Assembly: GCA_010365135.1 (NCBI GenBank)
Contig: JAAFGY010000003.1
Location: forward strand, 1-64,000
Direction: 5' to 3'
DNA: 64,000 bases
Source of the DNA: Flavobacterium sp.
Lineage (GTDB): Bacteria > Bacteroidota > Bacteroidia > Flavobacteriales > Flavobacteriaceae
Positions 12,825-53,016 of the stretch are shown here, piece after piece; position 1 is the stretch's first letter, and the number at the start of each line of letters is the position of its first letter. The notes under the pieces are model-generated. The model made no database searches, was not told the DNA's origin, and saw only the letters and a program-made list of their open reading frames with translations. The translations under genes were made by a program, and so were the position numbers.

Positions 12825-13904
12825 TTATGAATTCAATATTTTCTCTTGGTGACCAATACTTTCTTGGTGAATATCTCTGAATAACCTAACAATAAATTCT
12901 TCGGTTAACCCTTTTTTCGCACCTGCAGCGATCATTTTTACTTGGATTTCGTTCCAACGATTGTTTTGCAAAACAGCCACGTTATTTTCTTTTTTCACTT
13001 GACCAATTTCGTCAGCAACTTTCATACGCTTGCCTAAAAGCTCTAATAAATTGGCATCTAAAACATCGATATTGGCTCTTAATTTGGTCATTTTATTTTC
13101 AAAATCTGAATCTCCACTCACTTTTCTGATTTTCAAATCTTTGAAAATTTGTTTTAAAGCGGCAGGCGTCACTTGTTGCGCAGCATCACTCCACGCATTG
13201 TCTGGGTCATTATGCGTTTCGATAATCATACCGTCATAGTTCAAGTCCAAAGCTTCCTGAGTCACTTCAAGAATCATATCACGGTTTCCTGTAATGTGCG
13301 ATGGATCGATGATTAAAGGCAAATCAGGGAATTTATTTTGCAGTTCGATAGCAATTTGCCATTCTGGAATGTTTCTGTATTTTGTTTTTTCGTAAGTAGA
13401 AAAACCTCTATGAATTACTCCTAAATTTTTGATTCCAGCAGCATACAAACGCTCTACACCACCCAACCACAAAGCCATATCTGGATTTACAGGGTTTTTA
13501 ATCAATACAATTTTGTCAGTTCCTTTTAATGTATCGGCAATTTCCTGAACCGCAAACGGATTTGCAGTAGTTCGAGCACCAATCCATAGAACGTCAATGT
13601 CATTTTCTAAAGCCAATTTACAGTGTGCAGCTGTGGCAACTTCAGTTCCCATTAGCAAACCTGTTTCTGCTTTTGCTTTTTTCAACCATTTCAAACCTAT
13701 TTCACCAACACCTTCAAATCCTCCTGGACGAGTTCTTGGTTTCCAGATTCCTGCTCTAAAAACGCTTACATCTGAATCTTTCAATTCGTGCGCAATTTTC
13801 AAAACTTGTTCTTCTGTTTCAGCACTACAAGGTCCTGCAATTACGAATGGGTGAGTCAAATTGAATTCGTTCAACCAATTTCTCATTTCTTTCTTGTTTT
13901 CCAT
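12825..13904 (-). CDS. Bifunctional 3-deoxy-7-phosphoheptulonate synthase/chorismate mutase
   Basis: FVIAGPCSAETEEQVL...FRAGIWKPRTRPGGFEG plus C-terminal chorismate mutase (LRANIDVLDANLLELLGKRMKVADEIGQVKKENNVAVLQ). Confidence 0.95.
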   Translation of the reverse strand: MENKKEMRNWLNEFNLTHPFVIAGPCSAETEEQVLKIAHELKDSDVSVFRAGIWKPRTRPGGFEGVGEIGLKWLKKAKAETGLLMGTEVATAAHCKLALENDIDVLWIGARTTANPFAVQEIADTLKGTDKIVLIKNPVNPDMALWLGGVERLYAAGIKNLGVIHRGFSTYEKTKYRNIPEWQIAIELQNKFPDLPLIIDPSHITGNRDMILEVTQEALDLNYDGMIIETHNDPDNAWSDAAQQVTPAALKQIFKDLKIRKVSGDSDFENKMTKLRANIDVLDANLLELLGKRMKVADEIGQVKKENNVAVLQNNRWNEIQVKMIAAGAKKGLTEEFIVRLFRDIHQESIGHQEKILNS

Positions 13905-13945: not shown

Positions 13946-14803
13946 CTATTTTTTACTATTCATTCCGTTTAAAATTTCTCTTATGCGGTTTACGCCTTGC
14001 ATTTCATTGAAAATCGCATCATAATCGTCATTCTCTAGCAACTCTTTGAACTTGGATAAATTAGAAATGTATTCTTCCAATGTTTTTACAACTTGCTTTT
14101 TATTCTGTTTGAAAATTGGTGTCCACATTGCTGGTGAACTTTTGGCCAAACGAACTGTGCTTTCAAACCCAGAACCCGCCATATCAAATATATCTTGCTC
14201 GTCTTTTTCTTTGTTTATCACCGTTTTTCCGAGCATAAACGAACTAATGTGCGACAAATGCGAAACATAAGCAATGTGTTTATCGTGTGATTTTGGATCC
14301 ATATATCGAATTCTCATTCCCATACTTTTGAACAAATCCAATGCTTTTTCCTGTAACTTGAAAGTCGTCTTTTCCACTTCGCAAATGATATTTGTTTTGC
14401 CTTGAAACAATCCTTTTATCGCCGCCGATGGCCCAGAAAACTCCGTTCCTGCAATGGGATGCGCTGCTATAAAATTCCTTCTTTTAGGATGATTTCTTAC
14501 CGCCTCACAAATTGGAGTCTTGGTAGAACCAACATCAAAAACTGTCGATGTATCTGGAATTATATCCAAAACTTTTGGCAAAAACATAAGAGCGACATCA
14601 ACAGGAACCGAAAGAATTACGTAATCGGCTTGGACTAAATCTTCGAAAACCGCAACCTCATCAATAATTCCCAGCGACATTGCCTCTTTCAAATGATTTT
14701 CATTACTGTCGATCCCATAAATTCTGGCATCTTCAAAAAATTCTTTAGCTCCTAATGCTAATGAGCCTCCTATTAATCCTGTTCCTATTACGAATATTTT
14801 CAT
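13946..14803 (-). CDS. tyrA: Prephenate dehydrogenase; start taken at MKIFVIGTGLIGGSLALG
   Basis: NAD-binding GTGLIGGSLALG; HPIAGTEFSGPSAA; SHLSHISSFML. Confidence 0.9.
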   Translation of the reverse strand: MKIFVIGTGLIGGSLALGAKEFFEDARIYGIDSNENHLKEAMSLGIIDEVAVFEDLVQADYVILSVPVDVALMFLPKVLDIIPDTSTVFDVGSTKTPICEAVRNHPKRRNFIAAHPIAGTEFSGPSAAIKGLFQGKTNIICEVEKTTFKLQEKALDLFKSMGMRIRYMDPKSHDKHIAYVSHLSHISSFMLGKTVINKEKDEQDIFDMAGSGFESTVRLAKSSPAMWTPIFKQNKKQVVKTLEEYISNLSKFKELLENDDYDAIFNEMQGVNRIREILNGMNSKK

Positions 14804-14869: not shown

Positions 14870-16027
14870 CTACAAGCCAATTGCAAATCTATCAATTGCT
14901 TCTTGAATTTTTTCCTCTTTTACACACAATGCAAATCGAATATATCCTTCGCCATTGGAACCAAAAATAGTTCCTGGTGTAATGAATATCGATTTTTCGT
15001 ATAATATTTTATCAATAAAATCTTCTGAAGATGCGATTCCTGCTGGTAATTTTGCCCAAACAAATAATCCAACACCTTCTTTGTAAACTTCGCAACCTAG
15101 CTTTTGAGCCAACTGTTCAGTCAAAACTCTTCTTTTCTTGTAAACCGCATTCATCGAATCAAACCAAGATTTTTCGCTTTTTAATGCTTCAATCGCTCCT
15201 TTTTGGATTCCGAAGAACATTCCGCTGTCCATATTGCTTTTTACTTTCAAAACTGCATCAATGCAAGCCGCATTTCCTAAAACCATTCCCACTCGCCAAC
15301 CTGCCATATTGAAAGTTTTTGATAAAGAATTTAATTCTAATGCTACGTCTTTTGCGCCTTCGACTTGCAACAAACTCATTGGATTATCGTTCAAAACAAA
15401 ACTGTACGGATTGTCATTGATTAATAAAATATTGTGCTTTTTGGCGAAAGCCACTAATTTTTCGAACAATTCCAAACTTCCTCTCGCTCCTGTTGGCATA
15501 TGCGGATAACCCAACCACATCAATTTTACTTTGGATAAATCTAATTTTTCTAAAGCTTCGAAATCAGGTTCCCAATAATTTTTTTCCTGCAAATCATAAT
15601 AAACCGGAACCGCTCCAACCAAATTCGTAACGGAAGAATACGTTGGGTAACCTGGATTTGGAATTAAAACTTGGTCTCCCTCATTCAAAAAAGCTAGCGA
15701 AATATGCATAATTCCTTCTTTGGAACCCATTAAAGGTAAAATTTCAGTATTCGAATCTAAAGCAACTCCGTAATTATTTTCATAAAAATCAGCCATTCCT
15801 TTTCTCAATTCCGGCAATCCTTGGTAACTTTGATATTGATGCGCATTTTCTTCTTGCATCGCCAAATTTACGGCCTCAATAACCGCTTGTGACGGACGCA
15901 AATCTGGGCTTCCAATTCCCATATTGATAATGGGTTTTCCTTCAGAAGCCAATTGTCTTACCTCTCTCAATTTTGAAGAGAAATAGTATTCTTCAACTAT
16001 GTCTAAACGTTTAGCGGTTGTAATCAT
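14870..16027 (-). CDS. Class I/II pyridoxal-phosphate aminotransferase
   Basis: NPGYPTYSS, LNSLSKTFNMAGWRVGMVLGN, FALCVKEEKIQEAIDR. Confidence 0.93.
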   Translation of the reverse strand: MITTAKRLDIVEEYYFSSKLREVRQLASEGKPIINMGIGSPDLRPSQAVIEAVNLAMQEENAHQYQSYQGLPELRKGMADFYENNYGVALDSNTEILPLMGSKEGIMHISLAFLNEGDQVLIPNPGYPTYSSVTNLVGAVPVYYDLQEKNYWEPDFEALEKLDLSKVKLMWLGYPHMPTGARGSLELFEKLVAFAKKHNILLINDNPYSFVLNDNPMSLLQVEGAKDVALELNSLSKTFNMAGWRVGMVLGNAACIDAVLKVKSNMDSGMFFGIQKGAIEALKSEKSWFDSMNAVYKKRRVLTEQLAQKLGCEVYKEGVGLFVWAKLPAGIASSEDFIDKILYEKSIFITPGTIFGSNGEGYIRFALCVKEEKIQEAIDRFAIGL

Positions 16028-16038
16028 TTTCTTTTTTT

Positions 16039-16088
16039 TCCTCCCCCAACCCCCTCCAAAAGGAAGGGGAGCCGAAATCGAAAAGGGG
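16039..16088. repeat. GC-rich intergenic repeat between pheA and the aminotransferase
   Basis: CCTCCCCCAACCCCCTCCAAAAGGAAGGGGAGCCGAAATCGAAAAGGGG in otherwise AT-rich spacer. Confidence 0.65.
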
Positions 16089-16194: not shown

Positions 16195-17079
16195 CTACGG
16201 TTTTGTGTTTTTATATTCTCCTAAAACTTTGAAATATTCTGCCATAATTTCCAATAAAGATTTTGCTTTCGCGTAATCTTGGTACTTTTCAAAAGTTACG
16301 TCCACAAAAAACGAATATTTCCAAGGTGTTTCTATTTTTGGCAAGGATTGAATCTTGGTTAAATTCAGTTTGCAATCGCTCATTACATTCAAAACGGCGG
16401 CCAAACTTCCGCGTTTGTGATCCAATTCGAATTTTATAGAGGCGCGATTAATTTCGTTTTTTGAAACAAATGAATTTTCCCGTTTTACAATAACAAAACG
16501 CGTCATATTATTGTTAATCGTTTGGATTTCTGGAGCCAAAATTTCTAAATCATACATTTCCGCTGCCGTTTTACTGGCAATTGCAGCAATTCCTAAAAGT
16601 TGCTTTTTCTGAATTCTACGTGCTGTTTCGGCCGTATCTTTATCTTCGACTAATTTAATTTTTGGATATTTTTTCAAGAATTCCATACATTGCAACAACG
16701 CCATTGGATGCGAATGAACTTCAAGAATATCTTTAATATTCTGCCCTTTTAGCGCCATTAAATTTTGATGAATGTCTAAATAATGCTCGCCAATAATGTG
16801 CAAATTATTCTTGTCAATCAACGCATAATTCGGAATAATTGGACCCGCAATAGAATTTTCTATCGCCATAACTGCCTGATCTGATTTTCCCGAAAGCAAA
16901 CTGTCTACTAATTTATCGAATGACAAACATTCATCCACTTCGACCTCATTGCCAAAATATTCTTGCGCCACCTGATGGTGAAAAGAGCCTTTTATACCTT
17001 GTATTGCAATCCTCTCCCCGACCCTCAACAAACGAGAGGGAGAATCGGTGGAAGTAGTTTGCTTATTTGTAGTGTTCAT
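16195..17079 (-). CDS. pheA: Prephenate dehydratase with ACT domain
   Basis: IAIQGIKGSFHHQVAQEYFG; AIENSIAGPIIPNY; ELDHKRGSLAAVLNVMSDCKLNLTKIQSLP. Confidence 0.95.
   Translation of the reverse strand: MNTTNKQTTSTDSPSRLLRVGERIAIQGIKGSFHHQVAQEYFGNEVEVDECLSFDKLVDSLLSGKSDQAVMAIENSIAGPIIPNYALIDKNNLHIIGEHYLDIHQNLMALKGQNIKDILEVHSHPMALLQCMEFLKKYPKIKLVEDKDTAETARRIQKKQLLGIAAIASKTAAEMYDLEILAPEIQTINNNMTRFVIVKRENSFVSKNEINRASIKFELDHKRGSLAAVLNVMSDCKLNLTKIQSLPKIETPWKYSFFVDVTFEKYQDYAKAKSLLEIMAEYFKVLGEYKNTKP
17011..17048. repeat. GC-rich intergenic-type repeat inside the pheA 5' coding region
   Basis: CCTCTCCCCGACCCTCAACAAACGAGAGGGAGAATCGG resembles the intergenic copy at 16041..16088 (CCTCCCCCAACCCCCTCCAAAAGGAAGGGGAGCCGAAATCG). 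Confidence 0.65.
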
Positions 17080-17087
17080 AAATATTC

Positions 17088-17116
17088 AAAAAAAAATCCT
17101 GATTTTCATCAGGATT
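17088..17116 (-). terminator. Attenuator terminator of the pheA leader
   Basis: Minus strand ATCCTGATGAAAATCAGGATTTTTTTTT, about 10 nt before the pheA ATG. Confidence 0.9.
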
Positions 17117-17167
17117 GTATATTAGTTTTATTTGTTTCTTAATCGTTCAAATAACCATAGACAATCC

Positions 17168-17224
17168 TTACTTCCTAAAGAAGAAATAGTAAGTATTGCT
17201 AAAATAAAACTGGTTAGTTGACAT
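17168..17224 (-). CDS. Phe/Tyr-rich leader peptide MSTNQFYFSNTYYFFFRK
   Basis: 19-codon ORF upstream of pheA; 8 of 18 residues are Phe or Tyr; the FFF codons lie inside hairpin CTTACT...AGTAAG. Confidence 0.85.
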   Translation of the reverse strand: MSTNQFYFSNTYYFFFRK

Positions 17225-17276
17225 TTTGTTTCGTATTTTTAGTAAAATTCTCTGCGAATGTATAAATTATTTTTTG

Positions 17277-17342
17277 CTAACCAAAAGAAAACGCCGATTT
17301 TATTGAACAAAAAAAGAATTCTCGATAAAACTGGTTTTTCAT
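17277..17342 (-). CDS. Second upstream Phe-rich leader peptide MKNQFYREFFFCSIKSAFSFG
   Basis: 22-codon ORF; 6 Phe and 1 Tyr; shares AACCAGTTTTAT (NQFY) with the proximal leader. Confidence 0.75.
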   Translation of the reverse strand: MKNQFYREFFFCSIKSAFSFG

Positions 17343-17383
17343 TAGGTAATAATCAAAAATGAAGATTTTAAATTGCAATTAGA

Positions 17384-17391
17384 CAAATATA
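17384..17391 (-). promoter_or_regulatory. Candidate Bacteroidetes -7 element TATATTTG for the pheA leader transcript
   Basis: Matches TAnnTTTG about 40 nt upstream of the first leader ATG; -33 element not clear. Confidence 0.5.
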
Positions 17392-24006: not shown

Positions 24007-24049
24007 GTAAAATTATATTTGTTATGTGGAAAGGGAGAATTTTCGCGTG

Positions 24050-24156
24050 GTTATCTTTTCCCGATAAATCGAGATAGAATGTAGCACCTTTTTCGCTGAA
24101 AAGGAATAGGTTGCTAAGCTTTCGTCGGGTCTATTCCCTCTGGCTTTCGTGATAAC
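24050..24156 (-). ncRNA. SAM-I riboswitch upstream of metH
   Basis: GTTATCACGAAAGCCAGAGGGAATAGACCCGACGAAAGCTTAGCAACCTATTCC...GGTGCTACATTCTATC...GGGAAAAGATAAC; conserved AGGGA/GACCC.GA/GCAACC/GGTGCTA core and a P1 of GUUAUC/GAUAAC. Confidence 0.93.
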
Positions 24157-24226
24157 AATCAATAAATGTAGGAACGCTGCAAAGTACGTACATAGCGCGA
24201 TTAATTGCAAGTATTCAAGGTATATT

Positions 24227-39126: not shown

Positions 39127-39232
39127 TTGTTATCTTTTCCCAATTAATCGGGATAGAATGTAGCACCTTCTTCTTTTGCAAAGGGTTGCTAAGCTTTCAT
39201 TGGGTCTATTCCCTCGAGCTTTCTTTATAACA
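39127..39232 (-). ncRNA. SAM-I riboswitch upstream of metX-thrA
   Basis: TGTTATAAAGAAAGCTCGAGGGAATAGACCCAATGAAAGCTTAGCAACCC...AAGGTGCTACATTCTATCCCGATTAATTGGGAAAAGATAACA; same core as 24050..24156. Confidence 0.92.
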
Positions 39233-39400
39233 TTTCAGTACGTTTGTGAACTTATTGGGGCAAATTAACTACTATTTTTTTAAACAACCAAATTTTAGGC
39301 TGTTTGGTTTTTTGCTGAAATTAAAAAAGCATTGGCAAAAGCCTACTTAAAGACTCTCGCCGTTGCTAGTTTTACATCCACGTTTTTATTCTAACTTTCA

Positions 39401-41525: not shown

Positions 41526-41538
41526 CACTCGAAATATT

Positions 41539-41590
41539 AGAGGAAAAATTTGAACTGATTGCAACCTCGTTAAAAAAATGCTAAAGCAGC
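41539..41590 (+). ncRNA. SAM-II riboswitch upstream of metK
   Basis: AGAGGAAAAATTTGAACTGATTGCAACCTCGTTAAAAAAATGCTAAAGCAGC: P1 GAGG/CCTC, loop AUUU...AUUGCA, 3' GUUAAA...GCUAAAG and CUG/CAG pseudoknot potential. Confidence 0.85.
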
Positions 41591-41656
41591 AACTCTCCTT
41601 TAGTGTTTCCCCCGCAATCCATTTTTTTCTCGCTTAATTTAAAAAATTATATTATT

Positions 41657-52860: not shown

Positions 52861-52873
52861 AATTTCGTTTTTT

Positions 52874-53016
52874 AGCCCTGATGGAAATGGAAAGCCTTTT
52901 GAAAAAAACGGCTAATTTTTGTGGAGCAATAAAAGCGACCGCAGGAAGCTCTTTAGGGCTCTTACAAAAATAGCCGTTTTTGAAAAAGCTTGCAATGTAC
53001 AGCAGGATTGGCTTCT
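52874..53016 (+). ncRNA. Structured intergenic element, possibly a Flavo-1-like RNA
   Basis: AGCCCTGATGGAAATGGAAAGCC...AAAAACGGCTAATTTTTGT-GGAGCAATAAAAGCGACCGCAGGAAGCTC...ACAAAAATAGCCGTTTTT...GCAATGTACAGCAGGATTGGCTT; long inverted repeat around a GC-richer core; family assignment from memory. Confidence 0.5.

Follow-up and report, generated by a model that had tools for sequence, protein, structure and literature searches.

The pheA operon of a Flavobacterium is preceded by a leader that is very probably (probability about 0.92) a classical ribosome-mediated transcription attenuator of the Phe/Tyr operon. This reading is drawn from sequence, including the predicted transcription start, the translation of the leader peptide, and the amino-acid-dependent readthrough. 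An earlier note on this DNA had proposed Phe/Tyr attenuation in which a stalled ribosome frees one RNA strand, here called strand 2, to pair with the 5' arm of the terminator. Conservation in the family and the class, covariation across three strands, the geometry of the ribosome on the leader, and masked folding all support that proposal. The locus lies on the minus strand of the window, by which we mean the whole 64,000-nucleotide stretch of DNA that was analysed. The operon 3' of the leader runs in the order pheA, aminotransferase, tyrA, and DAHP synthase/chorismate mutase; these are Phe/Tyr biosynthesis genes, which a sensor of Phe and Tyr would suit. The features, in order of transcription, are:

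17277 to 17342, minus strand: 'distal leader ORF', not a leader, overlapping a conserved T-rich stretch 5' of the promoter
17255 to 17284, minus strand: leader promoter, with -33 TTG (17284-17282), a 19-nt spacer, and the -7 box TACATTCG (17262-17255)
17168 to 17224, minus strand: leader peptide ORF, MSTNQFYFSNTYYFFFRK followed by a stop codon, with 5 Phe and 3 Tyr codons among 18
17188 to 17199, minus strand: strand 1, GCAATACTTACT, pairing with AGTAAGGATTGT (17172-17161) and formed in the ribosome-free fold
17161 to 17168, minus strand: strand 2, AGGATTGT, overlapping the leader stop codon
17148 to 17156, minus strand: switch segment GGTTATTTG, pairing with CAAATA (inner antiterminator helix) or, via GGTTA, with TAACC
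17111 to 17118, minus strand: strand 3, ACAATCCT, shared by antiterminator and terminator
17088 to 17116, minus strand: intrinsic terminator AATCCTGAT-GAAA-ATCAGGATT with T-run (strands 3:4), hairpin of -11.1 kcal/mol
17079, minus strand: ATG of pheA
16195 to 17079, minus strand: pheA, prephenate dehydratase with ACT domain (Pfam PF00800, E 2e-57)
14870 to 16027, minus strand: class I/II aminotransferase gene (Pfam PF00155)
13946 to 14803, minus strand: tyrA, prephenate dehydrogenase (NCBIfam NF006307, 394 bits against a cut-off of 295)
12825 to 13904, minus strand: DAHP synthase-chorismate mutase fusion gene (Pfam PF00793 and PF01817)

In the mechanism that we propose, RNA polymerase would start near 17250 and produce a leader of about 163 nt, on which a ribosome would translate the 18-codon peptide. 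When both Phe-tRNA and Tyr-tRNA are plentiful, the ribosome would proceed to the stop codon and hide strand 2, so that strand 3 would pair with strand 4 and transcription would end at about 17088. When either tRNA is short, the ribosome would stall on the FYF or the YYFFF codons and leave strand 2 free; strand 2 would then pair with strand 3, and the operon would be read. If no ribosome is present, the start of the leader and strand 1 could pair with GGTTA and strand 2, which would make termination the default.

Conservation of the leader peptide and terminator

We applied one automatic test to 80 Flavobacterium-level pheA loci (the 80 nearest in named genomes, nearly all from Flavobacterium), 88 loci from other Flavobacteriaceae (one per genus), and 26 loci from other families of the class. 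The test called for an ATG-initiated ORF of 10-45 codons with at least 6 aromatic residues and an aromatic share of at least 25%, and for an intrinsic terminator within 110 nt 3' of this ORF. Leader and terminator were found together upstream of pheA in 79/80 Flavobacterium loci, 81/88 other Flavobacteriaceae loci, and 12/26 loci from other families; none of the 1,940 dinucleotide-preserving shuffles had both. Since 2 to 11% of shuffles satisfy the leader part of the test by chance, the diagnostic feature is the combination of leader and terminator. The proximal ORF described in the earlier note is present (17224-17168, minus strand) and, taken with the antiterminator and terminator, lies far beyond chance. 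The earlier note had regarded orthologous leaders devoid of aromatic ORFs or alternative hairpins as the outcome that would speak against attenuation; we checked for this and found the opposite.

Five of the misses were inspected (L069, L015, L023, L115, and L119), and in these a terminator, whole or partial, lies beyond the stretch tested. Among the remaining misses, the stretches of L128 and L154 are too short to judge and L140 has no leader. The 14 of 26 other-family loci that failed comprise 12 without a leader and 2 without a terminator by the criteria used. As judged from these loci, the predicted switch is common to nearly all sampled Flavobacteriaceae genera and to some other families of the class.

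The leader behaves as a coding sequence. Its ATG is kept in 81/81 aligned Flavobacterium loci, and in this genus the core of the peptide is NRFYFSN(T/S)(Y/F)YFF(F/W), with variation mostly at codon position 3. Between genera the nucleotide sequence of the leader varies greatly and the aromatic codons persist, so that a short ORF rich in codons for the operon's own product is kept across genera. Over 81 genera, the aromatic share in the frame of the ORF is 0.386, compared with 0.131 and 0.167 in the other two frames, and there are no in-frame stops within the ORF. The ORF has two endings among the Flavobacterium loci (L032-L111), with a stop either just before strand 2 (..FFFRK) or after reading through it (..SRSEDCAMVI), because small indels follow the aromatic run.

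All 81 passing leaders of the family contain both Phe and Tyr codons, and 53/81 contain Trp codons too; within the genus Flavobacterium, Trp occurs in a minority of leaders (FFW in 20/79). Tentatively, and at somewhat less than even odds, the pheA leader may be a combined aromatic sensor of the class, reading Phe and Tyr codons and, in many genera, Trp codons as well. If so, a shortage of any aromatic tRNA would open an operon whose products include the common precursor enzyme.

Alternative pairing and ribosome position

Strand 2 resembles strand 4, and its sequence is the complement of strand 3, which forms the 5' side of the terminator. The antiterminator of the earlier note, which pairs strand 2 (17168-17161) with strand 3 (17118-17111), is present, conserved, and covarying. 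In 41 aligned Flavobacterium leaders, 100% of cells are paired both in the core 2:3 helix (helix 1) and in the 3:4 helix, and the inner antiterminator helix is 92.7% paired. One position changes in concert in strands 2, 3, and 4, being A-T-A in most sequences and G-C-G in 11/41, as predicted for one segment that pairs alternately with two partners; within the genus this covariation is a single concerted change, which may reflect few evolutionary events. Antiterminator and terminator are mutually exclusive in that both use strand 3. The conserved terminator (17116-17088) lies between the leader ORF and the first gene, with its stem at 17115-17096 and its T-run reaching 17088, and the stem sequence occurs a single time in the genome.

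Other genera likewise have strand 2 within or close to the end of the ORF, as a copy of strand 4; the sequences themselves differ (strand pairs such as CGAGAC/GTCTCG, ACGGGACT/AGTCCCGT, and GCGGGAC/GTCCCGC). Across the family, a leader's own strand 2/strand 3 pair outscores swapped and shuffled pairs (16.9, 14.8, and 12.3, respectively).

Conservation is weaker in the inner antiterminator helix and in strand 1 than in strands 2-4, and the pairing of strand 1 is kept only partly in relatives. The pairing of CTTACT (17193-17188) with AGTAAG (17172-17167) given in the earlier note is present, but strand 1 is longer than this and pairs as GCAATACTTACT:AGTAAGGATTGT. In the ribosome-free fold, TAACC near the start of the leader ORF also pairs with GGTTA just 3' of strand 2. 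Both segments are nearly invariant, with each pair kept in 38-41 of 41 sequences, and this pairing may explain the near-invariant early Asn-Arg codons of the leader.

The distance from the last aromatic run to the start of strand 2 has a median of 10 nt in Flavobacterium, 11 nt in the family, and 10.5 nt in the others, a spacing of the kind that masking by a ribosome requires. We modelled masking by holding the nucleotides under the ribosome unpaired during folding, assuming a footprint from 12 nt upstream of the P-site codon to 11 nt past the A-site codon. With strand 4 not yet made, the probability of the antiterminator was about 0.98 with the A-site on codons 3-15, 0.44 at codon 16, and at most 0.06 at codons 17-19; in silico, then, strand 2 is masked at the stop codon and free in a stall. 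In full-length equilibrium folds, the terminator was still favoured at stalls on codons 11-13 (p(3:4) about 0.86-0.89), and with strand 4 present the equilibrium was mixed or terminator-favouring at several stall positions. For the model to work, therefore, the antiterminator must form first, while the RNA is still being transcribed. The full-length leader without a ribosome folds into the strand 1:2 pairing together with the terminator, and it folds better than shuffled sequences (z -2.7).

Promoter and rival explanations

A TA..TT[TC]G box lies 31-40 nt 5' of the leader ATG in 67/81 Flavobacterium loci, with TTG 19-21 nt upstream of the box in the loci displayed. The box of this leader, TACATTCG, agrees with TAnnTTTG, the -7 consensus (at -12 to -5) of the primary sigma factor (sigma-A) of F. 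psychrophilum (PMC9723704). A transcription start at about 17250, predicted from the position of the promoter, leaves an untranslated stretch of 26 nt 5' of the leader ATG, near the median of 24 nt reported for F. psychrophilum (PMC9723704). A highly conserved T-rich element, TTTTTTTGTT..ATAAAA......TTTTTTTTGG, occurs 5' of the leader promoter in Flavobacterium (window 17281-17315). We rejected a genome-wide role for this element, as the genome has one match to its pattern and 2 matches to a reversed control pattern.

The promoter bears on a part of the earlier note that did not hold up, namely the tandem pair of leader peptides, of which the distal one would be a second sensor or a decaying duplicate. 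The distal ORF does contain aromatic codons, a TAnnTTTG box lies upstream of it, and the 12-nt stretch AACCAGTTTTAT is common to both ORFs as the note had reported. The start codon of the distal ORF is kept, however, in only 3/81 Flavobacterium loci, and the frame is open in 1/81, which is the window itself; all the other Flavobacterium loci examined have it in broken form, and no terminator accompanies it. The length of the shared stretch is not significant, with an equally long repeat in 55 of 1,000 shuffles (5.5%), and common ancestry of the two ORFs on this ground was rejected. Since the conserved promoter lies 3' of the distal ORF, where initiation would occur, the main transcript should not contain it. 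The candidate promoter that the note had placed further upstream, TATATTTG, is present (17391-17384) but poorly conserved, and we rejected it as the main promoter; an additional start there is conceivable. A second aromatic ORF that is conserved and inside the transcript is thus not what these loci contain, and we consider tandem leaders very improbable.

Similarly improbable is a constitutive partial terminator that limits the operon, with the ORF coupling translation to the terminator without sensing amino acids. Such a terminator would account for the strength and conservation of the hairpin, but would leave unexplained the F/Y(/W) codons that leaders in 81 genera contain, the copying of strand 4 by strand 2, and the fixed spacing of 10-11 nt. 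A slightly smaller chance still goes to a riboswitch aptamer or T-box that binds the amino acid or tRNA directly, the ORF being incidental. The genome does use riboswitches and the leader folds better than its shuffles, but aromatic coding content is conserved in frame between genera while the RNA sequence varies, and Rfam has no riboswitch or T-box match at the leader. For the T-box in particular, the window has no match at the gathering threshold, and at the leader even a limit of E 10 gave none.

Known attenuators and other regulatory RNAs

The E. coli pheL-pheA attenuator combines a Phe-rich leader peptide and alternative antiterminator and terminator hairpins with pheA as its target. The Flavobacterium leader is alike in the Phe-rich peptide, the alternative hairpins, and the target gene. 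It differs in having Tyr codons as well (plus Trp in many relatives), in an operon that adds tyrA and DAHP synthase, and in a promoter of the Bacteroidetes type. The best Rfam match at the leader is Phe_leader (RF01859), in a full-length alignment ending at 17088; at 24.6 bits it falls below the gathering score of 55, and with this sub-threshold match as the only one, we rejected the leader as a member of an Rfam family.

Within Bacteroidetes, leader-peptide attenuation is already known from the Bacteroid-trp leader (PMC2864571) and from F. psychrophilum (PMC9723704). Bacteroid-trp (RF01692) is a Bacteroidetes peptide leader RNA (Weinberg 2010, PMC2864571) that likewise precedes an aromatic amino acid operon; it differs in its Trp codons and in the trp operon that it precedes, and its model has no match at the pheA leader. 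A study of F. psychrophilum reports strong clues that leader-peptide attenuation acts 5' of operons for amino-acid biosynthesis (PMC9723704); the main text of that study does not mention phenylalanine, and pheA may be in its supplementary tables. Our literature search found no description of a pheA attenuator in Bacteroidota, though Lopatovskaya and colleagues surveyed attenuation in 2010 (cited in PMC4833913) and may have covered one. What is new, and well supported by the sequence comparisons, is a candidate pheA case of the known, classical ribosome-mediated attenuation.

The same genome carries other leaders of this kind. A Trp leader, MKTFLNNTWWWNNLRQSS, with a terminator lies before trpE (L201:1310-1429; G000:C212) and matches Bacteroid-trp at 62.9 bits. 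A His leader, MLSIQLHHHHSHYCSQAMC, with a terminator lies before hisG (L202:1181-1298; G000:C164), with a sub-threshold match to Rfam His_leader (37.1 of 49 bits). A Thr-rich ORF, MKNNSKTYHSSITTSVGVATAVTFTTTTTTTTL (L206 reverse strand 625-726; G000:C203), precedes the aspartokinase-homoserine dehydrogenase gene and is likely a Thr leader; a simple terminator scan found none between this ORF and the gene. No clear branched-chain leader was found upstream of the leuA/ilvD region. Taken together, the Trp, His, Thr, and Phe/Tyr leaders suggest that attenuation is a main mode of control for amino acids in this genome.

Other elements in the window include two SAM riboswitches (RF00162) on the minus strand at 24048-24158 and 39127-39233, a SAM-II long-loop riboswitch (RF01726) on the plus strand at 41534-41594, and a Flavo-1 RNA (RF01705) at 52870-53013. 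The start of pheA contains a G+C-rich imperfect palindrome (17011-17043). It falls within an N-terminal extension, about 22 residues long, that the matches of most relatives do not cover, and it is similar to a repeat near 16040-16070 in the stretch that separates pheA from the aminotransferase gene.

Bacteroidota have an unusual sigma factor and initiate translation without reliance on Shine-Dalgarno sequences (PMC9723704). The pheA leader offers a worked, testable case of classical Phe/Tyr attenuation in this phylum, and many unannotated small ORFs upstream of pheA could now be named.
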